Below the pieces are notes generated by a model that had not been told where the DNA came from, searched no databases, and saw only the letters and a program-made list of their open reading frames with translations. Source: Spirogloea muscicola (lineage: Eukaryota > Streptophyta > Zygnematophyceae > Spirogloeales > Spirogloeaceae). Taken from it: a stretch of DNA of 51,293 nt. Below, piece after piece: positions 28,672 through 51,293 of this stretch. Location of the stretch: NCBI GenBank assembly GCA_009602725.1, contig WELB01000030.1, positions 290,158-341,450 of the forward strand, written 5' to 3'. Position numbers and translations under genes: made by a program. Numbering within the stretch: position 1 is the first letter of the stretch; each line of letters opens with the position of its first letter.

Positions 28672-31600
28672 ATGGAGGACGCCAAGGTGGCCTGCCTGCC
28701 GCTCACGCGGCCGCCGCAGCAGAGCCTCGTCATCGGCTCCCTCCCCGTCCCCGTCGACCCCGCGCTGCTCTCGCAGCAGTCGCCCGCCTGCGGCGCCTCC
28801 GCCGCTGCCGTCCTGCTGGACAGGTGCCTGTTCAAACTAGTCCTGCGTGCGCCGCTCTCTCCTTTTGAGCCTGCGCTACACGATCCTGTTCAGAACGCGA
28901 ATTGTGACCTGATCTCGAGCCGACTAAGTTAACATGTGTCTACCATTTCAAGTAGTTCTCCATGCTCTCCGATATGCCGAAATCACTCAGCACGGGCCAC
29001 CCGAATTGTCCCGCCAACAGGCCATTTGGTGCAAGGCTCCTGCGAGCTGAAGTGTGATCTATATTTGATATGTGATTACAGTCAGACACGAGCTTGAGCT
29101 GAGACGGTCTGTATAACTTCCTCCATACAGGCCCTGCGTATCAAATGACGGCCTCTTATCGGATGGAGCGGACTTGAAAGAACCACCACAAGCCTACCCA
29201 CTCTTTGAGGAGCGATGTTCCGCAGCTTTCGATAAGGCTGCAGGAGGTCAGTGGTGCTCGGCACAACGTAATCAACACTGTAAAGGATATTCACCTAACT
29301 TGGTGAAAGTGAACCCTCCTGCAGCTCTACGGAAACGTGTTGCCCACTGGTTTGCTCGCACCGCGGACCGCAAGTATGTAGCTATGAAGAGCCTGAGGAA
29401 TGCAAGGCTTACATGTGTCATGATTTGGGGTTCAGGTCCTTCACTTGGCACTTGGGGCGGCGGCTACTTTCAGAAGGCACTTGCTCGCAAGGGGGAGGCA
29501 CTTGCTGTCACGGGCTTGGCCGCATATGGGAGCGACATGGACGTAATTGCTCCCGCAGACCTCCTGAAGCAAATCTTTAAGGTGCCATACTGCAAGGCCA
29601 GGCTCTCCGTGGGCGTCCACCGTGTGGGGCGGACTTTGGTCCTCAACAGTGGGTCTGTTTTCAAGCTCTTCCGTGAACCTGCCTGAAGATGCACTCGTCA
29701 CAGCATAGTGGCTTATATCCTGGTGGGGACTCAGAGATGCATTCTCCATGACATGCTCTGTCTCAGTGGTGACACTGTTTTACCTGCTCTGGTGAAATGG
29801 TTGTGATTAGTGTGACTACTCTTATACCTGAAATGCAGGAAATCTAAGAGAAAGTGTCGTTGCCTGCAGGCCAGAAGCCTGTCAGAGTAATTTGAGAGAA
29901 AAGCCACGTCATGTCAAGGCCATGGAGAAGGTGTTTTTCTCTTGGTTTGCCATGCAGTCTAGGCTGAGTTTGGAAGATGAAACAGCTGGCGCCACTGCGA
30001 CATCAGACTTTGCGACCAAGAAACTGGGCCATAAGGGTGCACCTTGTGAGAGCACAGCTCAGGATACTATAGACAAGGTTGAGGTGCATCACGTGGCAGG
30101 CGCATCAGCTGACCAAGGCAATAGGAACCAGCAGATGCACAGCTTTACAAGCATGCTGTCTGACCTCCACAGTGTGCGAGCAAAGCAGGGAGGAGGAAGG
30201 CCACGCAGCAGTGCTTCTGCTTCAACCTGCTGCCAAGTCCCTGCAAATAATCAGGGTGAAGGTCACAAAAAGAACAAGGACAGCAGTGAAAGCCAAGGAA
30301 GGCCCGAGCTCGAAGGCTTCTTGCGCATAATCTTCTGGCAGTTCCGTCACCTTAGGATGCTGGTCGGAAGTGACGTCCTGCTATTCAGTAGCAGGGATCA
30401 CTCGGCCATCAGCCTCCATCTGATGGAAATTGGAGCAAAGGTGAGATGATGTGTCTCTTTGCCTTCTTGCTCATGCTCCGCAGGTGTTAAAATTGTCTAT
30501 CTTTTGAGTATCCTGTAAGCCGTCATCATGACGCATGTCATTGTTCTGCAAATATACGGCTCCACAGACCTCGTCATTAAGGTGGTCATCTGACAGGTAT
30601 TCGTGGGCGACAGGTCACTCCCCTTATGTGGCTGGATGCATGGCTGGATAACATAATGGCGTGCGTACCGGAGCTGGCAATCTGCTACCATGAAGATGGT
30701 GTTGTTCAGACCTTTGAACTCCTCAAGACGGACGAAATATACCTGTTAAAGGGCCTTGCTGAAGATGGCACAACCTTTTTCCATCCCCACATCGTACAGG
30801 AGAATGCTCTCTCGGTCTTCACATTCTTGCAAACCAACTGCACAAGTGACCCTGGCAGCTATTGGGTAAGGGCCAATGAAGCTTTGCTGCCAAGGGTATG
30901 ACTTACAGGAATTAGGACACATGCTCTGTATCTGTTAAGAGGGATTTGTGAGTCTGCTTGATAGGAGCAAGTATACATCAGCGGCTTTGAAACAACAGGA
31001 TTGTGGCGAGGTCAGTGCCAATATAGTTGAGGCACATATGCATAGCCTCATAGGCAGTTCAGTCACATTCTCAGTATTGCTACATTCAGTGGTCTGAGCT
31101 GCGCAAGGTACTCACTAGTATACCGTTTCTTGTGGATGTGACGACAGCTCTTCAAAAAGGCTGGTGATGATGTCATAAAATTGTTCGATTTGTCTGTCCT
31201 GGCCAAGGCTGCCACTTCGAGTCCTGCAGCCAGCAGGTGGCCATTGCCGAGCAGCACAAACGGCAGAGGCGACCTATCATTACCTCTTGCTATGTTACTG
31301 TATCGTCTTGCACTACTCCTCTCCAGCTCCCAGGTACCTAGGACTTCTTAGGATTCGTGGGTTGATGAAACATCGTAGTATCTCTTTGTGGCAGTTGATG
31401 TATGCGTTCTAGGTGGTGAAGATGGTGTACTGGACTATATAAGTTGATCATGATTCACAAGAGGGGATTCTCTCAGCTCTCAAACGTCATAGACCTTTGT
31501 CTTCTTAATTCGGCTTCTTCCTTTCCTGCCAGAATCAAGCAGAGCGGAAGAAGTGCGGGTCGTGGTTTGTGAAGAGTCTGCTGCTTATTGGCGAGCACGA

Positions 31601-34600: not shown

Positions 34601-35083
34601 AAGGCCTACTTCGAGCCAGACCAGCAGAAGGTAGCTAATCAGCCTTGCTTCCATATAGTACTCTGTTGCGCTGCCTTATTGACACTCGAGGTGTACTATC
34701 TGCAGGAAGTGACCACTTACTTTGCTACTGATTTTGTCCTGCTCGTGTTGTCTTTCCAGGCACATGGGGCAGCCTTTCGTCAGCTGCTGAACACGAGGAG
34801 GGCTTTGACGGTCAAACTTGCACCAGATGGCTCATCTAAGGGCTTTGAAGGAGGTCTTTCAGTCGATGTCCTCAAGCAATTATTGAGGAGACTGCAGAGC
34901 CTGCTGAAGGACATGCTGGGTGCCGCTTTGAAAACCTCCGAAGCACGCGGACCGGCGCAAAGTCAAGCTTCGCCAAAGGAGCAGGCGAAAGATCTCAAGC
35001 GGCTGAGGGATATGTACAGGCAGGCATTGTCGGCAACCGAGCAGCATGAGCTAGCCAGCCTTCTTGAGGCCTGGACATTCTAG
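28672..35083 (+). CDS. EDRF1: EDRF1-like TPR protein
   Basis: Homologue of erythroid differentiation-related factor 1, a large conserved TPR-containing protein of poorly defined function in plants. The start MEDAKVACLPLTRP is followed by LVIGSLPVPVD. Exons seen: 28672-28823, about 29436-29652 (DMDVIAPADLLKQIFKVPY, KARLSVGVHRVGRTLVLNSG), about 29892-30440 (GFLRIIFWQFRHLRMLVGSD), 30614-30865 (VTPLMWLDAWLDNIMACVPE), 31148-31333 (LFKKAGDDVIKLFDLSVL), 31533-31607, 31816-32919, 33071-34630 and 34760-35083. From 30614 every exon is a multiple of three and every intron phase 0. Ser-rich REVSCSCLSDRASSGNSASS matches plant homologues at the same place. Later parts are helical TPR-like repeats (EEALKYYKPEKYPDFFVDIA). 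The end is LASLLEAWTF. At least one small exon between 28823 and 29436 is unresolved. Confidence 0.9.
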
Positions 35084-35429: not shown

Positions 35430-36250
35430 GAGCAGGCTGACTTCAACGCAGCAGGCTTTCTCGCTCAGGTGTATCGCATGCGCCTGTCTGTCTTGCTGCA
35501 GCGGTCAACAGCACGCACATTGCATGTGCGTGCCGGTGGCGCATTGGCTGCAGACTCTGGTTCTGGCCAGGGGACCTGCTACCCGGAGACTAGTTTCTCC
35601 GACCTGCGGCTGTTCAACAGAGGTTACTGAGTGCCTCGTGGCCACTTGATTCACTGTGTGCTTTAGCGCTTTCTCTGGCCCCTTCGAACTTTGTTCACTC
35701 TTTTGTCTGGGCTGGCCTCCCACAGCCCTCTACTGGATGTGTCTCTTCTTCTGATATTATTAAGGCAATATTGCCCACAAGCGAGGGAGTACCCCACAGA
35801 TTACAAGTCCGACAAGCAATCATACTGCTTGCCGCTACGGTCATGTGCTGTGCTTGTCTCGCTACCCTTGCATTGGTTTTCTGGTCTGGCCAATCACAGC
35901 CGACGGCCCCTTCTGGAAGATTTTATCTTCTTCTGCTCATTTCTTTTGGGCTGGCCGATCACAGCCATTGCCTTGATCTCAATGAGCTGTTTCCATTGGG
36001 CTGCTTCTCTCTCTTTCTTTCTCTCCATCACTCTTTGACTCTCCACCACTTATAATACACGTCATTCTTCCGTGGGCTGGCGGTTTACAGCTCTCTATGG
36101 GCGAGCCGTTTGATCCTACACCCATTCTGACAGAGCATATGGGCGAGCACTTCTTCTTTAGGCCCCTCCGTCATCTGCCCCCTTCAAACCTTTGTCAATT
36201 CTTTTCGGGCTGGCTTTTCACAGCCCTTGCCCCCACTGGGAGAGCCACTC
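35430..36250 (+). mobile_element. 5'-truncated retroelement with tandem 3' ends
   Basis: 35443-35630 encodes FLAQVYRMRLSVLLQRSTAR through SFSDLRLFNRGY-stop with no internal stop. The 3' UTR follows, with its hairpin at 35710-35733. Four more forward hairpin units follow (35882, 35948, 36075, 36207), each with gccccttc...tttgttcattcttttgggctgg-like context, so several 3' ends are stacked. Some units end gggcgagc plus pyrimidines. Confidence 0.75.
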
Positions 36251-36339
36251 CTTGTTTGGGTCGACAGTGGCGGCCAGCCGTACGACGCCTGAGATGCGCC
36301 TGGAGCGTGGGCAAGATTCTTCCAATGAAAGAGAGAAAG

Positions 36340-36530
36340 ACGCTTCCATGAGAGGGCGGTGGCTGGAGGAGGCCAGCCCAGAAGATAGATTCAACAAAGT
36401 TCTAAGGGCCAGGAAATGGAATGGTCCCATTGCTGTGATTGGAGACAGACAGAAATGTAAGGGTTGAATGGGGTTAAACGAGTCTCTGGGCGAGCACTTT
36501 CTTAGCAAAGCCAGCCCAAAATAGGCGCCG
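36340..36530 (-). mobile_element. Retroelement 3' fragment, reverse
   Basis: Reverse-orientation hairpins near 36361-36380 and 36508-36520 in degenerate 3' UTR sequence. No coding part. Confidence 0.5.
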
Positions 36531-36540
36531 GCGCCGCTTC

Positions 36541-36660
36541 CATGGAGCCGTCGCCGCAGAGAACGCCCGGGCCACCAGTGTCGTTGACGGGCACGCTCCC
36601 AAACGGCGTCATGCGGCGCGTGAACTTGGCGGGCCACTTGCACACCAGCTACGAGTCCCG
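36541..36660 (+). CDS. Orphan first-exon-like ORF
   Basis: MEPSPQRTPGPPVSLTGTLP then NGVMRRVNLAGHLHTSYESR, ending at a strong donor (cccg|gtgagg). It looks like a genuine first exon in unique GC-rich sequence between repeat fragments, but no downstream exon is recognisable. It may be a gene fragment stranded by retroelement insertions or captured by one. Product unknown. Confidence 0.3.
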
Positions 36661-36999
36661 GTGAGGAAACCGTTGCTCATTTTACCGTGCAGCCCCGTCC
36701 AATGCCTTCCCCGCTTTTCCTCGCTCCACCGGCAGCCCGGGCTTGGCGATCAACAGCATCGTTACAACAAGAGCCAGCAAAGCAGGCAATGTATCACGCC
36801 AACCATGATAAGGAAATCTCCCACAATGCTGCTAGTTCCAGGCAAGTCACATCTGCTGAATGGAAAAGCTCCTCGGAAGGGCATCACGCCCATGAGGAAG
36901 AAAATGAGGCCAGCCCACGAACCTTCACCTACACGACAACAGAGGTGCGCCCTTGTACACGGCAACTCCTGCCCCATACCCGCGTGCACCTTATCCCGA

Positions 37000-37260
37000 G
37001 CGGGTCTGCCTTCTGGTACTTCTCTTCTCGTACTTTGTTCATTCTTTTTTGGGCTGGCTTTTCCAGCCCCTATCCTGTGATCCATCCTCCCCCTGTGCTG
37101 ACATGACATCTTCCGGCCCCTCTGTAGCTGCTAAACGCTTGTCGGCACCTCCGAACCCTTGTCAATTCTTTTTGGGCTGGCTTATCACAGCCCTTGCCCC
37201 CATTTGGAGTGCCACTTCTTCTTCTTATCCTCAATGGGCGAGCCCTCCTTCTTTCTTCTG
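37000..37260 (+). mobile_element. Retroelement 3' UTR copies, forward
   Basis: Two hairpins: 37051-37070 (GGGCTGG, loop CTTTT, CCAGCCC) and 37174-37193 (GGGCTG...CAGCCC). Between them gtgatccatcctccccctg repeats the post-stop sequence of 19455 and 51162. The second unit ends gtgccacttcttcttct. Confidence 0.7.
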
Positions 37261-37500
37261 GGCACGTGCGCGAGTCGCCAACAAGCCGAGAGCTTCGAGC
37301 TTGGCCGCGGCGCAGAGGGCCGCGGCAGCCGCGGGGGAAGATGCGAGCGGGGATTTGCGGGGTGGGCCCCGCTTTCTTTGCGGCGTAGGCCGGTGGCGCC
37401 CCGGGGGGCCGCACGAGCCGCACGAGGAGCGCCTCCGGGAATGGCGCCCCACGTTATTGCCTGCTTTCGACCTTGCCAATCATATGGGGGCTTCACTTTC
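37261..37500. other. GC-rich segment between repeats
   Basis: GC-rich sequence with an open frame (SLAAAQRAAAAAGEDASGDL, HEERLREWRPTLLPAFD). It could be internal retroelement coding or a host fragment; no homology is recognised. Confidence 0.3.
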
Positions 37501-37504
37501 TCGC

Positions 37505-37770
37505 TTTAGGCCCCTCTGTAGCTGCTAAACGCTTGTCGGCCCCTCCGAACCCTTGTCAATTCTTTTTGGGCTGGCTTATCACAGCCTTTGCCCCCATTTG
37601 GAGTGCCACTTCTCTCGTAGTCCAGTAAAAGTGGCTTCCCTCTCTCCATTGTTTTTGGGCTGGCTTTGCCAGCCCCTCTTCTCTATGGGCGAGCACTTTC
37701 TTCTCTCTCGTCCTTGCCCCCACTGGGAGAGCCACTTCTCTCTCTTGCACTAGCTTTTGTCTGAACTGTG
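37505..37770 (+). mobile_element. Retroelement 3' UTR copies, forward
   Basis: Repeats of 37120-37220 and relatives: hairpins at about 37568-37588 and 37658-37677, each followed by ccacttctctc or gggcgagcactttcttc. No coding remains. Confidence 0.65.
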
Positions 37771-37798
37771 TGCTGGCTTAAATCTGGCTACCCTATAC

Positions 37799-37832
37799 AT
37801 TCATGCGCACCGCGCGCCCTCTCTCTTCTGGT
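37799..37832 (-). repeat. GCGCGC-box repeat copy, reverse
   Basis: tcatgcgcaccgcgcgccct then ctctctt; reverse of the core at 38479. Confidence 0.6.
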
Positions 37833-38325
37833 GGCTGGCCGTCTCTGCAGGCCTCGCCTTCTTCCAACATCAGCCCGCCAACGGCCCCCAGGGCGCCCAC
37901 GTGGGCCCCCTTTGTAGGAGTTTTTTCGTCGCCAGCTCCTCTTCTCTGTGGGTGAGCACTTTCTTCGTCGCCTACTGCACTTCGTCCGCGACCACATCGC
38001 CTCTACCATTGGCATTAGCCAGCGCTGGACGAGCACCTCCCTTTTCCATCCTTTGCCCTGGCTCTTTCTGCCCAACGTACGGCTCGGCTTGGGTTCCTGA
38101 CATGGAACGTGTGTGTAGCTGCTGTGTGTGTGTGTAGAGTTTCGTAGCTGCTTTGTCTTTTTGTGCTTGTTTTCTTAGCGCTTCCCCTGGCCCCCTATGG
38201 ACTTTACCCATTTGGTTGAGCTTATTTTTGTTCATTCGGAAGAGCTGTTTCTTGGATAGCGCTGTACGGCTTCCTCAGACCCTGTCAACTCCTTTGGGGC
38301 TGGCTTTTCACTGAAGATGAATTGG

Positions 38326-38399
38326 CAAAGTGGGTGAGGGCTGGAAGAGTTACAGAAGACTCTTCCAGTAGCAGACTCTTCCAGCCCTCACCCACTTTG
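38326..38399. repeat. Perfect 25-bp inverted repeat with 24-base loop
   Basis: Left arm 38326-38350 (begins caaagtgggtgagggctgg) is the exact reverse complement of the right arm 38375-38399. The loop 38351-38374 contains a partial copy of the arm end (agactcttccag). A transcript would fold into a 25-bp perfect hairpin. It lies between repeat fragments. Confidence 0.92.
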
Positions 38400-38478
38400 G
38401 TTGGGTTCACTTTTCGTTCTGGATGGTAACTGCCGTGGCGCACCCGGCGCGCCTTCTCCGCCCGGCTGGCCGCTCTGG

Positions 38479-38609
38479 CGAGAGAAGGCGCGTGGGGCGC
38501 ATGAAATGAAAGGGAGGCCAATGCAAGCCAATACATTGTTCAGGCAGAGTCTAGTGCAAACTAAACAAGGCTACATAATATGGAGACCTAAACTAAGGTG
38601 CCTAAGGTG
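38479..38609 (+). repeat. Dispersed repeat with GCGCGC-box, long copy
   Basis: About 130 bases collinear with 11903-12029, including gccaatacattgttcaggca and acaaggctacat. The two long copies define a unit whose first 40 bases are the dispersed core. Confidence 0.7.
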
Positions 38610-38789
38610 AAATTAACACCCATGGGTGAGCACAAACAAATTGACAAGCTGACTTGGGGAGCTGGAGCGCCGCCATGAAAGCCGGAGGCCTGACTTGGAG
38701 CGCGCCCTGCACGTTGATGAAGAGCCAATGCTCGCGTGCGCTGCAAACGAGCGAGAGCCGCATACTATAATATGCAACTAAGGCCTGCG

Positions 38790-39500
38790 ATAGTTAGTAG
38801 CTGCTTTGTTTTTTCTTGTGTGCTTCTTTCTTAGTGCTTCGCCTTAGTGCTTCGCCTGGCCCCCCTTCTTCTTGGGCTTCTTGTACTCTGCTCATTCTTT
38901 TTTGGGCTGGCTGTTCCAGCCCCTATCCTCAATGGGCGAGCTCTTTCTGCGATATGCTGGAGTGGCCCAAGCTGCCCCCCCGACTTCGACGACGCGCATC
39001 AACCACCCGGGCCAGATGCTGGATCAGGGAGGACCATTTCACGCACGGCGAGTGGCACTCCAAATGGGGGCAAGGGCTGTGAAAAGCCAGCCCGAAAAGA
39101 ATTGACAAAGGTTCGTAGGGGCCAAGAGCGCTCTGGCGGCGCAGCCTGGCGCGCCGCCTTTTGGCGGCCGAGCAGGCCCCGTGGTGGTGGCAGGCCCCAC
39201 CGCCAAGCTGAGGCTCCGGGTGGCCCGGCGCCGCCCTGGCGCCGGTGGGCCCACGCCGGGCGGCCGACCTGCCGCCCTCACCCCTCCCAGATGGAAGAAA
39301 GGGCTCGCTTTTTGGGCTGGCTTTTCGCAGCCCTTGCCCCCATTGGGAGTGCCACTTCTTCTTCATTGAGGATAGGGGCTGGACAAGCCAGCCCAAAAAA
39401 GAATGAACAAAGAACGAGAAGGGGGCCAGAGGAAGCCAGAGGAAGCGCTAAGAAACCAAAGCACACAAAGAAAGAAAGCAGCTACAAATTACTCAGTAAC
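38790..39500. mobile_element. Cluster of alternating retroelement 3' ends
   Basis: Forward hairpin at 38904-38924, reverse at 39068-39090, forward at 39314-39333, reverse at 39374-39394, so orientation alternates. The forward unit's tail ccacttcttcttc (39352-39364) directly abuts a reversed unit beginning attgaggataggggctgg. A decayed LTRGY-like end lies near 39490-39530, reverse. GC-rich unique sequence at 39120-39300 separates two units. Confidence 0.65.
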
Positions 39501-39654
39501 CCCTGCTAAGCAGCCGCAAATCAGAGAGGCTAGGCGTCCCAGATGACGCTCCTCCCGTTCTATCCACGTGCCACTTCTATCCTGCGCTTCTCGCGCCTTC
39601 CAGGATCGCGCCTTCGCGCCTTCGCGCACCCAGGATTCTTCTGTCCTTGTCCAT

Positions 39655-39855
39655 TCGTTTTGGGCTGGCCTCCCAGCCACCAGTCAAGAGGAATGAATCT
39701 AGCCCTCTTGGGGCTGGCCTCTCACAGCCAGCCAGTCGCCAGACGTGAAAGCGGCTGTTTCTCCCTTTTGATGTCAGCAGCCGCAGCCGTCTTTCGGAAG
39801 TGAGCGTGAGCGCGCCCAAAGGCGGCGGGGCCTGTGAAAAGCCCGCCCAGGAAGG
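39655..39855. mobile_element. Hairpin-bearing 3' fragments
   Basis: Forward hairpins at 39661-39680 and 39711-39730 and a weak reverse one at 39832-39849. Confidence 0.5.
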
Positions 39856-40754
39856 CTTTCCCTTTTCCTCTTTCCGCCCAACCCCCCCCCCCCGCCGCCG
39901 CCGCCGCCGCCGCCGCCAGCTGCGCCGCGCTCGGCGCGGCGCCTCCTCTGCCGCAGCCGCCAGGATGACAGGTTGCATGTGCTGGCCCTGCCTTGGAGCC
40001 GGTGATTCAGCGCTCAACGGCACTTTCTCATGCAGGGCGAGCAGGGCTTGCCACAGCTTGCACAAGGACATCTGGTAGTAGGCAAGATGCTGAAGCGAGG
40101 GCGAGTGTTCGGTTGCGAGGAGCACCGATATTCGACTTCTCTGAGACGGGGCCGGCGTGGTCAGCGTCAACGTCAGCTTGATAGATCAGCCGAGGATTTC
40201 GGACTTCCACAACGAAGCTAAGCATTCTGCAGTGTTTGCAACAGCGCGATCAGAGCAGCCAGCCAGCCCCTAGGTCTATCAGCGCGACGACTATGTGACA
40301 TCATCCAGCTGATCCGACAGTTGGACGGCAGCGCGGTGGCCCAAGCTCACCATCGGAACGGAGCGTGCCATTGTATTGATGCCGAGCTGAATCAACGAGG
40401 GCCTGCAGCGCCGGCAGATTGGCAGTGGCGGCCAGTGTGGCACCGTTCTCCGGTAAGTCTGGGGCCAGCCACTCCGCGAACCACCCGCGTTGCCAGCTGA
40501 TGGTCACCCTGTGGTGAGCGCGGCCGTGTCACAATCACATATACGCCATCAGTGGCGCACGTCGTGGAGACCTTCACCACACGTCTTCCATGCTGACGCG
40601 CAATGACAAGGTGTAGGGATGCTCACCAGGAGGCCTGGATCGTCAATTGGCGCCAATGTATGGCGTAAGTCCAGTCGCCGTTACTGGCGCAGATGTCACG
40701 CAGCAGCTCGTCGTACAACCGCTCGGCGTGCAACCGCCTCAAATCCATGCGGTT
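39856..40754. other. Unassigned; C run and (CCG)n, no clear gene
   Basis: 39882-39918 is a C run followed by (CCG)n. Beyond it both strands have short open stretches (minus: LQHLAYYQMSLCKLWQALLA; GATLAATANLPALQALVDSA) that may be exons of an unidentified minus-strand gene continuing from the duplicated gene to the right. Not recognised. Confidence 0.25.
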
Positions 40755-41791
40755 GCTGGTGCTGCTGGCTGCCTGGGCCATCAGAATGAGCAACACTGCC
40801 GATCATGAGCCTTGGTCGCTGGCTCGCCCAACCAGATTGTGCTCCACTACTGGAGCTTGGTCGACGAAGACAGTGTGGGCCCTGCCACAGGCAATGCGAG
40901 GGTCCTGCTCCCTTGTTGCAGCTGCTCCTGTCTTGCAGCCAGCAACTTTGACATGGCAAGCCCAGCAGCCTGTTGTTGTTCCGCCAGCTTCAGCAGAGTG
41001 TTCCTGGACCTTGGTGTCAGTGAGGCGGCCATTGAGACGAGCGTTGCCCTGCAAGGAGTGTGCCAGTGCTCACTCAGAAATCTCAAGTAAGCATCTTGAT
41101 CCACACTGCTGCAGAATACAGGGGGCTGTGCATGGGCTAGATGCTGGATAGACGAGGTGCTTTTGTAGATTACTACCAGGGCTTCCAAGCAGGGCTGGGC
41201 ATATGTCAGATAGCTGCAGCAGGTTTGCTGTCACTTACATAGATATGAAGCTTGTGCTGCCAACAGTAGCGCCCAAAGGGAAGCTGCCGCCTTGCATAGG
41301 CTCTGCTGAAAGCTCCTCCCTTGAGGGCCCACCAGTGGTACCGGGCTCGGTATAGCTGCCTGGCCCTGCTCAATGATCACGGGTGCAGCACTGGTGTACA
41401 ATGACACGTGGTCCGATGAGCTCCTTGTGGAGGATGAGGCTGCCGCTCTGCCACTTGTAGGTGCCATGGCCTGCGGCATCCGGGTGGCCTCGCAGGCCTG
41501 CCGGCCAAGAACTGGCCTGAACTGAGTGGCCAACTGCTGCTTTGCTGCCGCCTGCGCTGCTGCGGCCGTTGCTGGCGGTGCGTGCTGCAGCGGAGCTGCA
41601 GACGGAAGACCCGCTTGCTGCGGGGCTGACGGCGCCGCAGCTTCAGATTTGTGCTGGGGCGCTGCAGGCCTGTGGAGGTTGGCTGGAGGGGCCCTTGCCT
41701 GGGCAGCTCCAGCCAGCCTTGCTGCAACCTGATCCTGCCTCTCCTGAAGGCGCGCCTGTAGCCCCGCCAGATCCGCCTCCTCATGCGCCAC
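40755..41791 (-). pseudogene. Duplicated unidentified Gln/Ala-rich gene, copy 1 (frame-shifted relative to copy 2)
   Basis: The minus strand opens after a tgtag acceptor at about 41793 with VAHEEADLAGLQARLQERQD, a likely coiled coil. A long Ala/Pro/Gln stretch, SSSDHVSLYTSAAPVIIEQG, a GTAAGT donor near 41240 and a second exon from about 41054 follow, ending at 40847. 40755-41340 repeats 43215-43800 at an offset of about 2.46 kb. Relative to copy 2 there is one extra base near 41003 and one fewer near 41345, so upstream and downstream frames do not agree with copy 2. NTLLKLAEQQQAAGLAMSKL is the readable core of exon 2. No known family recognised. Calling it a pseudogene is inference; splicing could differ. 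Confidence 0.4.
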
Positions 41792-41829
41792 CTACATTGC
41801 CAAGGCATGCTGGTGCAAACCCACAGCAT

Positions 41830-42599
41830 GCCTTACCTCTTAGTCATACTTAAGAATAGGTGAATTGACTTAGTTGCTACCACTCATCGCCTAGGTGTAG
41901 CCTGATGTAGGTGTTACTACTTGTCTCACCCTAGCAGACAGTGGATTGAAACTTTAAATTCTTGAAAGGACAGATGAAGAACGATTCTTGAGTTTCTCAG
42001 GGAAATTGTATAAATGATGCGAGCATATGCCCCGACACCAAAGTGAGTGAATGGGGATGTGCTACTTAAGCTTTTATGTGTAAGATAGCTTATAGCAAGC
42101 CTTCAGCACATTGCTGCAGCTTAGAATGTTGACCAACAGTGAGACAGCGACTGAAAAGGCCACCATTCACTGTGGTGTTAGCATGGGGGCATAAGTCGTC
42201 TACGCATGATGCTTGCTGCCAGTACCTGCGAGCAGGCTAACTGGGACATCCAGTCACATCGATAAGATTCTCTTCAATTGGCTCCGCATCCAGGCTGCCC
42301 AGGAGCAGGAAAACGAGCGATCAACAGGGATGCCTGGAAGACTTTCTGCTCCAAACGCAGGCACAGGAGCGCCCAGAGCAGGAAGTCTTTGAGGTCACTT
42401 TCGGCTCGCTTCCTGTGCTCAGTCCCAAACTATCTCGTAACACGCAATGGCTAGTCTGGAAATTCAATATGACAAAGTTGCTCCAGTCTTAGAACGTTTG
42501 GACTGCTGTAGAGCCCACAGCAGATCGAGGGCTATGTCGGCCCTTCTCTCGAGAGAACACTCCTGCCTCAGCGAATCTTGTGGCGGATCTGTCTAACGA
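41830..42599. other. Spacer, no gene seen
   Basis: AT-richer sequence with frequent stops on all frames. It may hold eroded 5' parts of the Gag-related element to the right. Confidence 0.35.
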
Positions 42600-42800
42600 G
42601 GATTAGAGTTGTTAGCAAGTCTCTAGCAAGCGGGATCTGGCGGGAACATCTGGGTAAACAAGTTTGAAAACAGAGGAAATGACAGGACGTACTATCTCAG
42701 CATGAGATTGCGCGAATGCAGAAAGCAGGACGAGCCAGTACAAGAATTCGTGAACAGAGTGAAATCATTGGCTCTTCAGCTGCAGGACATTGGAAAGGGC
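42600..42800 (+). mobile_element. Ty1/copia-like Gag fragment
   Basis: From about 42643 the plus strand reads NIWVNKFENRGNDRTYYLSM then RLRECRKQDEPVQEFVNRVK and SLALQLQDIG. The pattern W-(x)n-YY/L-x-x-x-LR-x-x-(x)n-V-x-EFVNRVKSL-x-x-QL is that of retrotransposon Gag (UBN2-type) in copia elements. Upstream frames contain stops. No LTR, protease, integrase or RT seen. It sits between the two tandem gene copies. Confidence 0.45.
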
Positions 42801-43214
42801 TCCTCACGCTCGGGCTCCTCACGCTCCAGGCTGCTGATGCTCCATACTGGTGGAATCTTGTTGGCTCGGTTGTAGCTCCGCGGAGGCGCTGCCGGCGCCA
42901 GGTAAGGTCTGGCCCCCCGACTGGCCCATGTGGTCGAGCGGCTGCAGCTCAACCCAGCTGGGAATAGTGCCTTGCGACGGACTCGGCAGCAGACTTTGTG
43001 CCATTGCTGACGGCAGTGATGAAGGCAGCGGAGGCACCTCAAAGTGCATCATGCGGCCGCTTGTAAGGTGGCTGGCCCTGCTGCAGCATATTCAGGCCCT
43101 GGCTGCCGCTGCTATGACCGCTTGTTAAGTCTGCGGTGCTCTGCCAGTCCACTGCCTGCACGCTCTCGGGTCGAGTTGTTGGGGCATCCGCGACCATTAT
43201 ACTGACCAGCTGCT
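42801..43214 (-). other. Gln/Ser/Pro-rich minus-strand frames
   Basis: Minus strand reads GSQQHQLQQLVSIMVADAPT, LNMLQQGQPPYKRPHDAL and, in another frame, ELQPLDHMGQSGGQTLPGAG. Possibly further exons downstream of copy 2. Low complexity prevents assignment. Confidence 0.3.
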
Positions 43215-44013
43215 GGAGCTGGTGCTGCTGGCTGCCTGGGCCATCAGAATGAGCACTGCCGATCATGAGCCTTGGTCGCTGGCTCGGCCCACCAAATTGT
43301 GCTCAACTACTGGAGCTTGTCGTAAAGGCCAACGATGACAGTGTGGGCCCTGCCACAGGCAATGCGAGGGTCGTGCTCCGTTCTTGCAGCTGCTCCTGTC
43401 TTGCACCCAGAAACTTTGCTATGGCAAGCCCAGCAGCCTGTTGTAGCTCCGCCAGCTTCAGCAGAGCGTTCTGGACCTTGGTGGCAGTGAGGCGGCCATT
43501 GAGACGAGCGTTGCCCTGCAAGGAGTATGCTCACTCCTCATAATTCTCAAGCAGGCATCTTGATCTACATTGCTGCAAATCAGGGGGCCGTGCATGGGCC
43601 AAATGCTGGATAGACGAGGTGCTTTTGTTGTTTCTACCAGGGCTGTCGAGCAGGGCCGGGCATATATCAGATAGCTGCAGCAGATTTGCTGTCACCTATG
43701 TAGATATGGAGCTTGTGCTGCCAATAGTAGCGCCCGAAGGGAAGCTACCGCCTTGCATGGGCTCTGCTGAAAGCTCCTGCCTTGAGGGCCCACCACTGAT
43801 ACCGGGCTCTGGCGAAGCTGCCTGGCCCTGCTCAACTACTACGGGCGCAGCATGGTCCGATGAGCTTGTGGAGGTTGAGGCTGCCGCTCTGCTCAGTTGT
43901 CTCAGCTCTTGAGATGCTGACTTGCTAGGCTTCGTACTGAATGGCATCCGCTCTTCGCTACTGTGCCCATCTGAGACTCTCCACCCACGGGCAATCCCCA
44001 CAGCTGCCACCAT
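43215..44013 (-). CDS. Duplicated unidentified Gln/Ala-rich gene, copy 2
   Basis: An exon-like stretch from 44013 reads SASQELRQLSRAAASTSTSS, DHAAPVVVEQGQAASPEPG, GPSRQELSAEPMQGGSFPSG and reaches an in-frame TAG at the position of copy 1's donor. After a ccttgcag acceptor at about 43522, GNARLNGRLTATKVQNALLK and LAELQQAAGLAIAKFLGARQ lead to a stop at 43303. The amphipathic KLAELQQAAGLAIAKFL segment suggests a helix. The coiled-coil N-terminus of copy 1 is not found here. No family recognised. The tandem, same-strand arrangement indicates duplication. Confidence 0.4.
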
Positions 44014-44839
44014 CTGCTGCAGCTTTCAGCCGCTGCCCGGCCAACTGTGTTGGCCAGGCACGATGAGGACGCACAGCGGAGGTTAGAAAGAGGGGGTCAT
44101 GCGATGCGGGTCATCGCTGCTGCCGCCAAATAGCAGCACAAGCCGCAAAGGTGGAGCCTGGGCAGGCGGGCGAGCGAGCCAACGAGCAGCTGCGCTCAGA
44201 AGCAGGAGCTGAGGATTTTGGAAAGACCATGTTTTGAGTAAAACTCAATGCGGCTCAAATACAATGTTGACTGACGAGGGCCGGACTTTGGAAGCAAACC
44301 TACAATCTTAGGCCGCCAGTATGCTATGCTGACCCGCTCAGTAGCCGCTCAGCAGCTGGCAAAGAGACCGCTGCTGACATTTTTGGTTTCGGCTCTGAAA
44401 GCCAGCCAGGTTGTGGCTGTTGATTTGTATGACTGTGAGGTGAAAGCCACTTGCTTTGCCAAGTAATTTGCATTTCCAACCCCTTTGGACCCTGTCATGC
44501 TGCGTTGACCTGTTCGACCCCTGAAAGCCATCTGCCCTTTTAGGTGTAATATCTCTAATCATCTTCTAGCTGCATACAGGAAGTATCTGAAGAAACAGGG
44601 CGCTCTCCGTTAGTACCCCCCGTCTCAGCAATAGGAAGTCAGATGAGCAAGAAGGACGAACGGTGTAACCTGCAGCTCCCGGCGCACGTGGGGAGTCTTG
44701 GTATGCCACGCGGCGCCTCGGGCGGCCCGCCTTGCCGGGGGACGTACGCCCGGGAGGGAGGTGACAGACGGCGGGCCGTCCACGGTCAAAACGACGTCGA
44801 GACGGCGCGAGACGGCAATTGTGCATTTGGTTCGGAAGT
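44014..44839. other. Spacer, no gene assigned
   Basis: Mixed sequence. A minus-strand frame at 44338-44562 (SFHLTVIQINSHNLAGF-like) is short and unsupported. Confidence 0.3.
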
Positions 44840-45350
44840 CTGTTCGTTCTTTTTCTGGGCTGGCCAATAACAGCCGCCTCCGTCCACTGGACGAGTCTCT
44901 CTTCTCAATTGATTTCGACATTATTCGTGGTACTTGCATCGCTGTGTGATCCAGCGCTTTACCCGTCCCTTCGGACCTTGCCCATGGTTTTCTTTGTGGG
45001 GCTCGCACTCTACTGGTCCTTAAATTCTGGGCTGGCCTCTGACAGCGGAAGAAAGAGCTCGCCAATTGAGGATAGGGGCTGGAACAGCCAGCCCAGAATT
45101 TAGGGCGGCGGCTGGGACAGAAGAAGAAAGAAGAAAGACAGCCACCGCCCTCTCCTGGAAAGAAAGTGGCTCTCCTAATGGTGGCAAGGGCTGTGAGAAG
45201 CCAGCCCAAAAAATTGACGAGGTGCAAAGGGAAGCGTCTTCCTTCTTTCATTTCTTGTTCATTCAGCCCTCCCCCCTTCTCTATCAGAACTTGCACGTTC
45301 TGGGCTGGCCTCTCACAGCCATTGCCTCACAGTGGTAGAACTGTTGCTTC
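44840..45350. mobile_element. Retroelement 3' fragments, both orientations
   Basis: Forward hairpins at 44858-44877, 45028-45045 and 45301-45320; reverse at 45075-45095 (with attgaggatagggg context) and 45189-45208 (with cacuccc-like gtggcaagggctg context). Same units as at 39 kb and 49 kb. They end about 230 bases upstream of the lipase start. Confidence 0.65.
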
Positions 45351-45403
45351 TTACCAAATCCGAACGTTACTACGAGGAAAAGAAAGTAAGCCCCTTCAAA
45401 GCC

Positions 45404-45442
45404 AGAGAAGGCGCGCTGTGCGCATGACATGAAACGAGGCCA
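45404..45442 (+). repeat. GCGCGC-box repeat copy
   Basis: agagaaggcgcgctgtgcgc then atgacatgaaacgaggccaa; 135 bases upstream of the lipase start, probably within its promoter. Confidence 0.6.
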
Positions 45443-45576
45443 AACAAGCCACCACTAGAACGAGGAGGAAGATCATTTCCTTGAGAAACTGCAGACTGAC
45501 TGGCGGGGCCGATCGGGGCCCCCGGGGCGGCCGGGCCCCCACTCCCCGATCGGGCGTCCGGGGGCGCCGCCCCGGC

Positions 45577-48308
45577 ATGGCCGAGCGCCACGGCCGNGCG
45601 GCGACGGCGGCGCAGGCGCTGCTGCGCCGCGGCGGCGCTCGGCGCCGCCTTCCTCGCCCTCCTGTCCGCCTTCCCGCTCCCCGCGGCTGCGCAGCTTCCC
45701 TACGTCGCGAACGAGCCGCCCACGGACTTCTGCGCTACATATGTCACCAAGTCTGGGTACAAGTGCCGCGAGTTCCGAGTACGTCCCCGCCTGTGCGAGC
45801 ACGCCTCACAGAAGCTCGTAGCAGAGCAGAAGCAGAGTCTACAGTGTGCAATGACTGCAGGATGAGCCCGTCGTCCTCGCATCAAAGGAGTGTCGTACCG
45901 ATCATTATATCAGGCTCATCCTGCTGACATCAAGCTGGCTCTGGCCACGCATGTCGCTGCGCCAGGTTGTCACGCAGGATGGCTTCATACTCAACATGCA
46001 GCGGATCCGCAGCCAGAACTTCACCACTTCCGCAGTCCGGCCGCCTCCACAGCCAGCGCACAGTGCACGACCAAGCCCGCAAGGAAAGCAACCTTCGACG
46101 TCAGGAGCAGCCAGGACAAGGAGAGCCAACGTGACGACACGAGCACCACCACCACGCTCGACAAGTAATACGGCAAGCAGGCCAAGGAGAGCCAACGCTA
46201 CCAGACACGCAGCAACACCGGCCCCTACCCGCTCACGCTCGGTCTCACCGAAGCTGCCAGTGTTCTTAGACCACCCGGTGTTCATCGGCGGCAACTGGTG
46301 GTTTGGCTCGCGGAACAGCTCTATGAATGTAGGCATGACAAAGCCGCTGCCGCTGTTCCTAGCAGAACATGGCTATGAGGTTTGGATAGGGCACCACCGG
46401 GGCTCCGAGTGGTCACCAGATAGCACTCGTTACAGCCGGGATGACCGTGTAAGTAGTGCACAGCCTTGTCTCTCGAGTGTGCCCATGTATGTAAGCATAG
46501 ACAGACACGATCCCAACATGTGGTCCTGCTTCATATGATACGGGTGATATCTTATGCTTGCGCAGAGATTCTGGGACTGGAGCTTCGACGAGCTGGCACT
46601 TGATGACACCCCTGCTCAGATACGCCTCAGGGCTGGTATTAGTGGCCATCGAGTCCATTTTGTGGGGTACAACCAGGTCAGCACACTAGTACAGCTGCTC
46701 TCCTCGATCTCCGAGCAGTTTTAATGGCTTGCTCAAAGCTTATTTTCATTAGCATCATCGTTTCATGTACATCGCCGTGCTGCAATGAAGACACATACTT
46801 CGCTGCTTGTTGTAAGATGAACAAGCTTCAGCCAGCAATTCTGAGCACAAATAACCGTTCAGCATGATGCACCTTCCTGCCAAGCAGGGAGCAGTTGTTG
46901 GCATCATTGCTGCCAGCAGGCTGCAGGCTGTTCAGGAATGTCTTGCCTCGTTGACGATGATTGGACCAATTGCGTACTTGGTTGATGTCACGTCTACGGT
47001 ACTGCGGAATTGGGGGACCTCCTTCACACCTGATAGGGTAAGACGTACTTCATGCACATTGCCGTTGTCTCTGACATGTGTCATAAGCTTGTATACGTAT
47101 CACTCCTTGCTTAACAATCATTTGCCGTGTATTGTGAAGTCAAGGTAGCTGCTCAAACATGCTGCAGTCATTGCATCTATGCATGTACAAATAAGTGCCA
47201 AGATAGTGATGTATTTGCAAATAACTTTTTTTGCACACTTGCAACAGATGATATACGACACTGGATTGCTGGCAACGGAATACAATCTAACGAAGTAAGT
47301 AGTAGGTCTTCCTGCCCTCATGGTGCAGAAAGTAGGCGCTGTGTACGCTGTGTCTAGCTCGACTTGTCGGATTGATACAGATGTATTAAGCGAGTACCTG
47401 CCAAGCTGACCAATTGTCTCCAAGCGAGTAGGCTCTAGAAGAACCAACACAGTATTTCTGTATCAGTACACAGACGGTGGCCAATATTGTTAACAATTTC
47501 GGCATATCAATGACCAATGGTGCATCTCCAGAACAGTTCCTCAGCAATGTCACAGGTGTGTGAGCCGATCTGGTTTGCGCATGTCAAATGAACATCCTTG
47601 ATGCCGTCACAATCTGCTCGAATGGTCGATGAGAAAAGCAGCCATTGCCTGGTACTGTGTAGGACCAAACTGTTGCATCGACGCGAGTGCTGCTGTAGGC
47701 TATGCATACACTGGATCAGAGAGTGCGTGGATCGTGTCATCGTATCGTAACCTCATCCATATGCAACAAGGCACGTACAGCTGCAATACTGCACCAACTG
47801 ACTTGCTGTGTGACGAACCATGACTGCAATCAAGCAGAGAACTCAGTCTGGGCATGTATGCTCCTTATGCAACAATGCTCAAGAAGTGTGCAACTCAAGC
47901 ATGGAGCGTTCAACAATATAGTTAGCAGGGCATAAGTAGCGTAGCATGATCTTGGAACTCACAATCGCGTGGTGTGGGACTGCTCGTCATGCAGAAATCA
48001 ACCAAAGCCGCTTTCAGATGTGGGATTGGGCCAGCGCACAGCTCAACCAGCAGAACTATGGCAGTGCATTACCTCCTCAGTACGTTCCAGGCCTCGTCCC
48101 AGAGGTGCTGCCCAAGCTCATCATCAGTGGTGGCAATGACTGGTTTGCGGACAGCCACAATGTCGACCATTTGGCAGAGGCCTTGTCGGGCACACCTGAG
48201 CGTGTCGTCATCCCAGAGTATGCCCACCTGGACCTCATCTATAGCAGGCGTGTTGAGGACGATGTCAACCAACCCCTCCGGAAATTCCTAGACCGACACA
48301 ATTCCTAG
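45577..48308 (+). CDS. Acid lipase family alpha/beta hydrolase with Asn at nucleophile position
   Basis: Related to lysosomal/plant acid lipases. Exons: 45577-45778, 45966-46448, 46566-46676, 46888-47037, 47248-47294, about 47640-47790, 47995-48308. The start ATG is in frame only if the N at 45597 is a placeholder; it then gives an Arg-rich start and hydrophobic AALGAAFLALLSAFPLPAAA, a secretion signal. Motifs: KCREFRVVTQDGFILNMQRI; FLAEHGYEVWIGHHRGSEWS; RFWDWSFDELALDDTPAQIR; HFVGYNQ-GAVVG; GPNCCID; FQMWDWASAQLNQQNYGSAL; ISGGNDWFADSHNVDHLAEA (triad Asp); YAHLDLIY (triad His). The elbow is G-Y-N-Q-G where the family has G-H-S-x-G, so the Ser nucleophile is missing. The usual oxyanion HG region reads FLDHPVFIGG. 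An insertion of about 75 residues, Arg/Ala/Thr-rich and repetitive, lies in exon 2. Likely a secreted or vacuolar pseudoenzyme, if the sequence is right. Confidence 0.85.
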
Positions 48309-48612
48309 CTAGCCTCCTGTCAGATGTTTAATGGATAGAGCCTCACAAGTGTCTCACCTGTTAAACGATAGCTGCAGCTTGACTTGCACCAGCTGTGCAT
48401 TGGGTGCATTGGTAGCAATCAAGCATGTGCATGTCGTTATAGAAGGCATGTGCTTACACAACCGCGACAAGTATCTGCATTTATTTTCGGGATTGCAAGC
48501 TCGTATGACCTATTTAGCTGAGCATGCCTGTCAGTTTCATAACTGCAGCTTAACTTGCACCAGGTATGCAATGTCTGTATTGGTAGCCTTCAAGGGTTTA
48601 ACCATATAGGAA
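48309..48612. other. Lipase 3' flank
   Basis: Unique sequence containing an imperfect direct repeat (gctgcagcttgacttgcacc at 48370, ctgcagcttaacttgcacc at 48543). No gene seen. Confidence 0.4.
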
Positions 48613-49330
48613 GGCAGGGAAAGAAAGAGCGCGCCCATAGAGAAAGGGGGCCAGCAAAGCCAGCCCAGAAAGAATGGACAAAGGCAAAAGCCAAAAAAAC
48701 AAAACAAAACAAAAAGGCAAAAAACACACAGCTAGGCAGCTAGAGAAGAAGACACGACGAAATCACTGGAAGCTCAATACCCCCGGGTGAGCAACATCAG
48801 GTCGGAGTAGCTCGACGCAGGAAAAGATGCATCCAGACGCGACCCAGAAGCAGCCGCGATAGCGCGGCCCGCACGCGAGTGGACGGCATAGGCGAGGGAG
48901 CGTTGGAGGGAGACGGAGAGCCGCATCCGGAAGACCTGGGCCAGGGAGCCGGCCGCGTTGAAGCCGGGCAGCCTCCCTGGTAGACCCGGCCGCCGCTAAA
49001 TGGCCTGCCGGGCAAGCCGCTGGAGGAGGTCCAGCCAGCCACGGCCAAAGGCCCCGTGGACATCGATGGCCAGGGCTGCGAATTCGTCGGCAGGCGGGTG
49101 ATCAGCATATTTCCGTTCGCCGCGGGCCGCCACAGCGACCGCATGCCCAGCGGTCGTCGCCGACTTGGAGGGGTTAGCGGAGTCGACACAGTCGGCGGTC
49201 ACCACATCCGCGATGATGTGCGGACCGCCACCGCGCGGGATGGCGACGAGGTCAGCGCGCCGGGTGTGGATCCGGCCGTCGTCGTCGCGCAGGATGGGCA
49301 AGGAAAGCAAGCACAAAACGAAGCATAGCT
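48613..49330 (-). mobile_element. Longest retroelement copy: RLE-like C-terminal domain, tail and 3' end
   Basis: Reading leftward from about 49310: RRADLVAIPRGGGPHIIADV, AGHAVAVAARGERKYADHPP, DEFAALAIDVHGAFGRGWLD, one stop and about 30 residues, then FNAAGSLAQVFRMRLSVSLQ, RAIAAASGSRLDASFPASSY and SDLMLLTRGY-stop (48780). The (R)ADL-x(n)-DV and KY-x(n)-F-x-x-LA-x-D-x-x-G-x-x-G pattern resembles the restriction-like endonuclease end of R2-type LINEs. The 3' UTR has a T-rich stretch, a hairpin (48649-48664) and a gggcgcgctctttctttccc end at 48613, next to unique DNA. 5' truncated. Confidence 0.65.
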
Positions 49331-49339
49331 GTGAAACAA

Positions 49340-49595
49340 AATGAAAGAAGTGGCACTCCCAATGGGGGCAAGGGCTGCGAAAAGCCAGCCCAAAAAGAAT
49401 GCACAAAGGTTCAGAGGGGCCTAAGAGCGGTGAGCAGCTACAAAGGGGCCTGAGGATGCAATGGTAAAACAGGGGGAGGATGGATCACTCAATAAGTACG
49501 AGTGAGGAGCCTCAGATCCGACAGACTAGCTGCCGGGAAGCTATCACCCTGACGAAAGCCAGAGCCCGCAGCGAGAGCACGGCCAGCTCGCAAAA
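49340..49595 (-). mobile_element. 5'-truncated retroelement copy, inverted relative to 51040-51293
   Basis: Reverse complement of 51040-51293 almost base for base. It includes the AGRALAAGSGFRQGDSFPAA, SLSDLRLLTRTY-stop coding end (stop about 49489), the post-stop gtgatccatcctcccc and the hairpin at 49372-49390. It ends with the gccacttctttc tail at 49344. Confidence 0.8.
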
Positions 49596-49599
49596 GAGA

Positions 49600-49800
49600 A
49601 AGAGCTCGCCCATTGAGGATAGGGGCTGGAACAGCCAGCCCAAAAAAGAATGGACAAAGTACGAGAAGGGAGCCAGGGGAAGCGCTAGAAACAAGAAGAA
49701 AGGGCTCGCCCATTGAGGATAGGGGCTGGACAAGCCAGCCCAAAAAAGAATGAACAAAGAACGAGAAGGGGGCCAGAGGAAGCCAGAGGAAGCAGGAGGA
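49600..49800 (-). mobile_element. Two tandem hairpin units
   Basis: cgcccattgaggatagggg and the following hairpin and gaacaaag context occur twice (49610-49690, 49705-49790) and again at 39365-39440: stacked 3' ends of one subfamily. Confidence 0.65.
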
Positions 49801-49819
49801 GCGCTAGAAACAAGCTCTT

Positions 49820-50290
49820 CCGAAGTGGGCGACGGCTGTGAAAACCAGCCCGACAGAAAGGGAAAGAAATCCTCTGTGACGAGCAATTTCTTCTAGAGAG
49901 TGGGGGCTTCACCAAGAAGAAGAAGTGGCGCTCGCAATGGGGTCAAGGGCTGCGAAAAGCCAGCCCAAAAAGAATTGACAAAGGTTCGGAGGGGCCTACA
50001 AGTCCAGAAAGAATGGACAATGTCAAAAGCCAAAAAAAACAAGAAACAAAAAACACACAGCTAGGCAGCTAGAGAAGAAGACACGACGAAATTACAGGAA
50101 GCTCAATACCCCCTGGTGAGCAACATCAGGTCGGAGTAGCTCGACGCAGGAAAAGATGCATCCAGACGCGACCCAGAAGCAGCCGCGATAGCGCCCGGTC
50201 GGTGATGAGTTCGCGGCCCTGGCGATAGATGTTCACGGGGCCTTCGGCAGCCGCTGGCTGGATCTCCTCCACCGACAGCTTCCGGACGAA
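49820..50290. mobile_element. Retroelement 3' end joined to an inverted upstream segment
   Basis: 49827-49845 and 49947-49967 are reverse hairpins. 50028-50194 is a near copy of 48690-48850 (T-rich 3' UTR and the AIAAASGSRLDASFPASSYS, DLMLLTRGY end), minus orientation. At about 50195-50203 the sequence switches strand: 50203-50290 (+) encodes DEFAALAIDVHGAFGSRWLD, which belongs upstream of that tail in the 49 kb copy. Confidence 0.6.
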
Positions 50291-50294
50291 GGGC

Positions 50295-50695
50295 CCCATT
50301 ACTTCTGAGACCGGCTACGCTGTGAAGGTAGCCGAACGGAAGAAGCTGCACAAGTACAAGGACCACCCGGCGGGTGACACCTTTTACCCCCTGGCCATGG
50401 ACATCCAAGGGTGTTACGGGGGTCGGTGGTCCTCGTTACTTTCGCTGCTGGCCTCTCAAGCTGACCAGCGGCGCCGGGAGCAGGGTGCTGCCCTTCCCGG
50501 TGGCTCGGTGCCTTTGGGTCTGGTGTCCTGCTACCGTATGCGACTGTCTATGTCCCTGCAGCGCTCCCAAGCGCTTGCTTTGCACTGCCGCGCTGGTCGC
50601 GCCCTTGCAGCAGCCTCTGGCTTGCGCAGCGGGGTTGCTCTTCCTCCCCTCAGCTCATCTGACTTCCTACTGCTGACACGGGGGTATTGAGGGCG
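50295..50695 (+). mobile_element. 5'-truncated retroelement copy with longer C-terminal domain
   Basis: One open frame: TGYAVKVAERKKLHKYKDHP, AGDTFYPLAMDIQGCYGGRW, SLLASQADQRRREQG, CYRMRLSMSLQRSQALALHC, RAGRALAAASGLRSGVALPP, LSSSDFLLLTRGY-stop (50690). A diverged subfamily of the 48.6-49.3 kb copy, collinear with it. Confidence 0.7.
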
Positions 50696-50699
50696 CCCT

Positions 50700-51293
50700 G
50701 TCTGCCTAGCCTTTGGCTCCGTCATGAACACCTGTATGCATCTGGCTGGCATTTCACAGCCGATTCTTTCATATCAGCAGCCGCTTTCTTTCCAGCGGCT
50801 TGCTCGTCAGGCTATTGATCGGCGGTCGGGTCCGCCCGGGGCGCTGCCCGGCTTCAACGCCGCCGGGTCGCTCGCCCAGGTCTTTCGCGGGGCTCTTGGG
50901 TCCCAGTGGCTTGACCAATTGGCTAGGCTTGCGCGGCGGGCTGTGTTCCGCAGAGGCGGCGAGCCAGCCGACTTCAACGCCGCGGGCTCGTGGGCTCAGG
51001 TATATCGGATGCGCCTCTCTGTATCCCTGCAGCGGTCCATGGCCCACGCTCTGCATCTGCGAGCTGGCCGTGCTCTCGCTGCGGGCTCTGGCTTTCGTCA
51101 GGGTGATAGCTTCCCGGCCGCTAGTCTGTCGGATCTGAGGCTCCTCACTCGTACTTATTGAGTGATCCATCCTCCCCCTGTTTTACCATTGCATCCTCAG
51201 GCCCCTTTGTAGCTGCTCACCGCTCTTAGGCCCCTCTGAACCTTTGTGAATTCTTTTTGGGCTGGCTTTTCGCAGCCCTTGCCCCCATTGGGA
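50700..51293 (+). mobile_element. Retroelement copies, right edge
   Basis: A hairpin-like cggctg relic near 50750 is followed by two overlapping coding pieces: LARQAIDRRSGPPGALPGFN, AAGSLAQVFR (50800-50888), then LARLARRAVFRRGGEPADFN, AAGSWAQVYRMRLSVSLQRS through SLSDLRLLTRTY-stop (51161). The 3' UTR and hairpin (51259-51278) run to the window edge. The duplicated FNAAGS(L/W)AQV motif shows two joined copies. Confidence 0.75.

Follow-up and report, generated by a model that had tools for sequence, protein, structure and literature searches.

We analysed a 51,293-nucleotide stretch of the Spirogloea muscicola genome (contig WELB01000030.1, positions 290,158 to 341,450 of the forward strand; hereafter the window), in which the coding end of one kind of protein recurs at many places. 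A preliminary description had named ten such places and attributed them to one family of 5'-truncated elements resembling long interspersed elements (LINEs). Searching the window by tblastn with five C-terminal queries gave 17 non-overlapping rows at E ≤ 0.05. Of these, 14 have E ≤ 1.2e-4 and correspond to 13 places, because two rows are the halves of a single copy at 20.4 kb; reversed queries gave three rows, the best with E 0.003. All ten places named earlier are among the 13 (the one put at 21.4 kb lies at 21.5 kb), and weaker matches within the same threshold add places at 20.9, 38.7 and 39.5 kb. The interval 35430-51293, originally given as the extent of the copies, leaves out those at 19-21.7 kb. 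We consider it very probable that the repeats derive from several related non-long-terminal-repeat (non-LTR) retrotransposons of the restriction-like endonuclease (RLE) type by target-primed reverse transcription, and that they are dead copies, most of them truncated at the 5' end.

The shared protein end stands, and the assignment to a single family does not: the copies belong to several related families, here labelled A, B, G, K/E, F, H and I (names coined in this analysis), and their proteins end in LTRGY, LTRTY, LSRGY, FNRGY or LPRGY. In the subfamily A copy at 48.8 kb a TAG interrupts the frame and the first Lys of the KX2KY motif is missing; judged by its sequence, this copy is dead. Three rows fall between the two thresholds. 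At 44.6 kb (E 0.010) the match is probably a real relic, since 32 nt agree with a G copy at 94%; the rows at 6.6 and 27.8 kb are rich in Ala and appear fortuitous.

The ends of the copies were compared across the 153-Mb assembly (471 contigs). The 49310-48780 piece retrieved eight loci, of which seven end at one 3' point and L006 ends about 110 nt short of it; divergence among the same loci begins at different 5' points. Searching the genome for the exact 31 nt that close subfamily A at the 3' end gives 44 sites, 22 per strand, and the reversed pattern is absent. Leaving out L028, L045 and L048 (contig end or N) gives 41 copies with readable flanks, which extend 34-1442 nt upstream of the 3' end; with L031, a duplicate of L020, also set aside, the median is 97.5 nt (n = 40). 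The combination of a fixed 3' end and differing left ends noted in the window is therefore seen both between loci and in 41 of the 44 exact-end copies. For family G, the shortest copy measures 41 nt, the longest at least 1038 nt and the median is 235 nt (n = 20, every fifth of 100 copies listed among 322; seven of these lengths are minimum values, since N or an end of the fetched sequence interrupts the copy). Two G copies, L123 and L124, have most of one 3' flank in common and are probably a single event.

Downstream of the shared GCGCGCTCTT, A copies continue with TCTT in 29 of 40 cases and then with variable C/T letters. Exact words of at least 7 nt common to both flanks are found in 17 of 40 A copies, compared with 9.8% of mismatched-copy pairings. 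Clear target duplications are present in A copies L003 (AATATCAT), L021 (AATTCCAAA), L035 (AATATCCC) and L044 (CTGAACAAGG), and in G copies L084 (14 nt), L086 and L137. This pattern of fixed 3' ends, varied 5' ends and short target-site duplications in A and G is the trace left by target-primed reverse transcription, as had been proposed from the window.

An upstream reverse transcriptase (RT) and Cys-rich motifs, which the preliminary description proposed to look for, were both found on longer copies. Walking upstream in families A, C and D led to longer copies, which have the RT motif YADD, and Pfam RVT_1 was matched by three of six proteins of longer copies (L015, 6.2e-11; L012, 1.3e-7; L011, 2.2e-7). 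A protein search for family G returned 17,685 first-look candidates, the best 150 of which were scored; at least 14 G matches among the 150 listed lie in frames of 1,199-1,488 codons, and three were read. All three full-length copies read carry an RT. The full-length copies L077-L079 are 4.1 kb long, 99.78-99.88% identical and have open frames, and the 1338-codon frame of L077 matches RVT_1 at 3.3e-17. Because these copies are near-identical with open frames, family G is, on sequence grounds, young and may still be active. Searched against the PDB, a seven-row profile gave R2Tg as the best match, over the RT region (2.8e-7 and 7e-7), followed by mL68 (0.006, over a Ser-rich stretch), the RNA-directed DNA polymerase 8c8j (0.075) and LINE-1 ORF2 entries (at least 0.17). 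Single proteins searched against the PDB gave nothing useful (YuiC was listed at 0.88). N-terminal fingers of the form CX2CX12HX3C number two in L015 and one in L077. One pattern scan of viral contigs gave two matches, neither a relative. As a separate observation, a different RT family (for example C33:908349, C170:276821 and C235:98040) accounts for several equal top RVT_1 matches, in frames of 1,172-1,237 codons, and is likely another young element.

Downstream of the RT, families A, D, G and K carry R-x-D-L-V in the C-terminal region, with a second Asp 14 residues further on, KX2KY and an early His. The marks of LINE RLEs are given as KX2KY (with a catalytic first Lys, and the Tyr), GXW and His (PMC5678591). 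The region is probably an R2-type endonuclease. The earlier suggestion of such a resemblance holds at the level of motifs, with GXW strict only in G; the PDB profile search and the structure prediction gave the fold no confirmation.

An alignment of eight 3' tails (families A, B, C, D, E, I and J) spans about 65 nt on either side of and including a GGCTG...CAGCC stem. In 91% of cells the inner stem is conserved; it hardly varies, with no inner pair altered on both sides. Among five tails folded against shuffles those of A, B and E2 fold better (z -2.4, -2.1 and -4.7) and those of I and G do not. A covariance model of the tail, R1, has 28 matches in the window and 10 in a random background of 20 loci of 1.5 kb drawn from 31 contigs (30,000 bases, 23,675 without N). 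The random loci thus hold about one R1 tail per 2.4 kb, which corresponds to 31,000-119,000 tails genome-wide (Poisson limits, if the sample is fair). The G tail of the window is not among the R1 matches, and the GGCTG...CAGCC motif is common to G by eye. An Rfam scan of the window gave nothing at the gathering score.

Several observations weigh against the interpretation as RLE-type elements inserted by target priming. The motif match is imperfect: GXW is strict only in G (GRW), A, D and K having GX2W, and Ala or Val replaces the Pro of PD, where R-x-D is found. The knuckle upstream of the RLE region reads CX1CX12HX3C (A, D, G and K; C by eye), whereas that of LINE RLEs is given as CX2-3CX7-8HX4C (PMC5678591). 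For the RLE region, a profile search of the PDB returned nothing relevant (best 0.9, a phosphodiesterase), Pfam gave no match, and an AlphaFold model of the window piece, built from two window sequences, reached a mean predicted local distance difference test score (pLDDT) of only 38.5. RVT_1 was not matched by the other three of the six proteins scanned with Pfam, that of L013 included. At least five of the 17 flank words (L017, L025, L030, L034 and L046) are rich in C and T and may belong to the tail instead of being duplications. The tail stem has no clear covariation, shuffles equalling each measure in at least 15 of 500 trials; for the whole structure the covariation score was reached 36 times and the count of pairs changed on both sides 354 times. 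Covariation was therefore rejected as proof of the stem.

The tails also bear on where the elements insert. R1 tails cover 5.6% of the random loci, 6.0% of the window and about one third of the 100-nt flanks of the 41 A copies. The 3' flank begins in a tail in 15 of 40 A copies, against a background of 5.6% (bootstrap 2.0-9.7%; p ~2e-6 at the upper bound), and in any relative of our library in 18 of 40, against 9.6% (4.2-15.3%; p ~8e-6 at the upper bound). A is inserted in the tails of relatives at about 5-7 times background. The tail counts are the safer ones, because the library was partly built from fetched loci (K from L023) and the any-relative counts may be inflated. In family G, with L077 left out since its own flank is in the library (9/33 becoming 8/32), 3' flanks lie in relatives in 8/32 and 4/20 cases, together 12/52, or 12/51 minus the likely duplicate (p 0.003 at the point background, 0.08 at the upper bound); in tails alone the counts are 0/25 (L080 in one by eye) and 2/20.

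The A enrichment might reflect regional clustering, or survival at harmless landing sites, rather than target choice, and we give this explanation somewhat less than an even chance. The weaker enrichment in G, with few copies in tails alone, fits it. What it accommodates less well is that A insertions recur at shared spots, with L002, L005 and L040 in B tails all within about 15 nt and the 3' flanks of L008, L033 and L052 starting at E-tail position 60-61, and that 12 of the 15 nested A copies have the orientation of the host tail. Nesting is well supported in family A and only suggested in family G. As a general property it was not upheld for G alone, where the systematic set of 20 has two copies at tails and four in any relative. 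Separately, the G copies L111 (C101) and L118 (C270) each sit within the C-terminal coding end of another G copy, at almost the same position, a coincidence that may be a repeated target or a duplication.

Another explanation takes the short copies that consist of a tail alone for an independent, non-autonomous element like a short interspersed element (SINE), with a small RNA of its own mobilised by the LINE protein. The short A copies invite this idea, as 20 of 40 measure 34-84 nt and none follows until 111 nt, and so does the density of R1 tails in random loci. A SINE is expected to have a fixed 5' end, and the varied 5' ends count against it: the full range of A lengths has no one fixed 5' end, and G lengths spread from 41 to at least 1038 nt in a sample that includes the two copies with a largely common 3' flank. 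We regard a separate SINE as unlikely.

An element of the Dualen/RandI type, combining an apurinic/apyrimidinic (AP) endonuclease with an RLE, would suit a green-lineage host, and the (CTTT)n 3' repeat of SINEX-2_CR, a SINE paired with RandI-2 (PMC3747384), is like the CTTT-rich tails here. The L077 frame nevertheless gave RVT_1 alone, without an AP endonuclease, RNase H or Myb match, in a Pfam scan up to E 5 in which the HMMER filters drop most matches above about 0.1. With this one full-length G protein as the test, and the 5' parts of A, C and D masked, missing or unread, we judge such an element very improbable. A DNA transposon, or a non-LINE repeat of another kind whose coding end is conserved, is scarcely credible: nothing specific favours it, longer copies carry an RT, and one end is fixed and the other varied; no DNA-transposon termini appeared, although no search was aimed at inverted termini.

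Returning to RLE-type retrotransposons inserted by target priming, the following cycle would account for the copies. A single open frame would encode one or more N-terminal Cys/His fingers, the RT, the knuckle and a C-terminal RLE. The protein would bind the 3' tail of its own RNA, the tail serving in recognition by the RT, and the RLE would nick one target strand. With the nick as primer, the RT would start at the 3' end of the RNA, which finishes in CTTTCTT, and copy towards the 5' end, in line with the pattern of the ends. It would usually stop early, and each insertion would keep the same 3' end, have a 5' end of its own and be flanked by a target duplication, which measures about 6-14 bp where it is clear. 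Half of the subfamily A copies measured stop within about 100 nt, and on this scheme little beyond the 3' stem-loop would remain. A broader proposal is that these families form an RLE-only LINE clade of the green lineage with a weakly processive RT that, beginning at a shared 3' stem-loop, has spread tens of thousands of tails of about 60-100 nt through the genome, and that these tails are preferred landing sites for later insertions, the elements nesting away from genes; this we put forward tentatively and consider rather doubtful.

Table 1 Copies of the element families and 3' tail matches (model R1) in the window
Feature	Position	Strand	Remarks
Family B copy (LTRTY-stop)	19319-19528	+	99% identical to 51 kb copy; outside interval 35430-51293
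Family I C-terminus and tail	19986-20243	+	Tail match 20156-20221; outside interval 35430-51293
G-like C-terminus, frame change between two halves	20366-20544	+	Outside interval 35430-51293
C-terminal relic, short	20872-20955	-	Outside interval 35430-51293
Family F copy	21270-21676	+	Protein end 21482-21583; outside interval 35430-51293
K/E-type copy, older	35447-35716	+	Protein end 35448-35627; tail match 35686-35751
R1 tail match	36187-36254	+	
Four clustered R1 tail matches	37030-37703	+	37030-37090, 37154-37221, 37548-37615, 37637-37703
G-like C-terminal piece, old	38642-38746	-	tblastn
R1 tail match	38883-38950	+	
R1 tail match	39046-39113	-	
R1 tail match	39296-39361	+	
K/E-type copy, last 23 residues and 3' untranslated region (UTR)	39365-39552	-	Tail match 39348-39415
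G-like C-terminus, probable short relic	44617-44673	-	32 nt at 94% to G copy; protein E 0.010
Two R1 tail matches	45048-45225	-	45048-45113, 45159-45225
Subfamily A copy L001, 5'-truncated: RLE region to stop codon, 3' UTR, tail	48625-49300	-	Stop codon 48774-48776; tail model match 48620-48686; in-frame TAG, first Lys of KX2KY lost
Family B copy, 5'-truncated, ends LTRTY-stop	49357-49592	-	Tail match 49344-49411
Two consecutive R1 tail matches	49595-49762	-	49595-49662, 49695-49762; at period-100 tandem repeat 49597-49783 (Tandem Repeats Finder, TRF)
R1 tail match	49919-49986	-	
Subfamily A copy, C-terminal residues and part of 3' UTR	50001-50194	-	
Family G copy, 5'-truncated	50265-50790	+	99.2% identical to full-length L077; open to stop 50688-50690
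A-type copy, internal piece adjoining G copy	50791-50887	+	
Family B copy (LTRTY-stop), cut by window end	50961-51293	+	Tail match from 51239

The window also contains host sequence. A FAE1-type ketoacyl-CoA synthase (PF08392, 3.6e-137), a host gene, lies at 7050-8633 (+), and exons at 29117-29683 and 33038-35080 (+), directly before the repeat-rich part, are like the EDRF1 N-terminal domain (5.5e-9) and EDRF1 TPR (4e-4, below the cut-off). An open frame at 4426-4740 (-) resembles, by eye, an ExoIII/APE-type endonuclease and probably belongs to the host. Near several tail insertions, 45855-46535 (+) weakly resembles an alpha/beta-hydrolase lipase (7e-6, narrowly missing the cut-off). Elsewhere in the genome, nuclear RuBisCO small-subunit matches occur at four loci with two exons each, and TTTAGGG arrays give at least 369 forward and at least 246 reverse overlapping matches. 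Taken with the FAE1-type synthase, these features indicate a host of the green lineage, probably a green alga. Among the matches listed, C27:905790-906317 is an internal TTTAGGG array with facing forward and reverse blocks, like a head-to-head telomere fusion.

RLE-only LINEs are informative on the origins of LINEs and are being developed as gene-insertion tools. A young RLE-only group in a host of the green lineage would, provided the RLE is confirmed, extend the range of such LINEs. The very short insertions provide a natural record of RT stopping points, and the nested sites are concrete targets for nicking tests. Our literature search, which did not cover Repbase and Dfam, found no description of this family.

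Among green algal LINEs, Zepp carries an AP endonuclease. Zepp and ZeppL resemble the present elements in occurring in nested clusters (PMC3446292, PMC8226300); Zepp is given as an L1 element with an (A)n tail (PMC3747384), in contrast to the RLE-type motifs and CTTT tail found here. Table 3 of the same 2013 review gives L1, RandI (Dualen) and RTEX as the LINE clades of green algae (PMC3747384). Dualen/RandI shares with our families an RLE in a green-lineage LINE and, in one paired SINE, the (CTTT)n 3' repeat (PMC3747384), and differs in its AP endonuclease, absent from the tested full-length G copy L077.

The LINE clades that encode an RLE are given as CRE, R2, R4, NeSL and HERO, plus Dualen (PMC4640811). 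CRE, R4 and HERO are RLE-only LINEs, a type that the present families probably share, and HERO is described as including many non-specific families (PMC4640811). NeSL, including Utopia, is similar in having one protein with one to three N-terminal fingers, an RT, one finger and a C-terminal RLE (PMC4640811); unlike NeSL, A and G have flanks that vary from copy to copy (these were not searched for snRNA genes). Because the flanks differ between copies, A and G have no single target. Utopia is reported from Amoebozoa, SAR and Opisthokonta (PMC4640811).

The closest comparison is with R2 (R2Tg, PDB 9dou and 9nl3), which has the same order of fingers, RT, knuckle and RLE in one frame, provides the best RT profile match in the PDB, and shares KX2KY and the early His of the RLE. 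Unlike R2, the present elements show no single 28S site: their copies are dispersed, and the flanks of the 40 A copies and of the 52 G 3' ends, none compared with rRNA, vary from one to the next. The elements also differ from R2 in the knuckle spacing, in a GXW that is strict only in G, and in having no Myb domain by Pfam. The element is of a kind already known: it acts like an R2-group LINE, from which its atypical knuckle and unusually short insertions set it apart.

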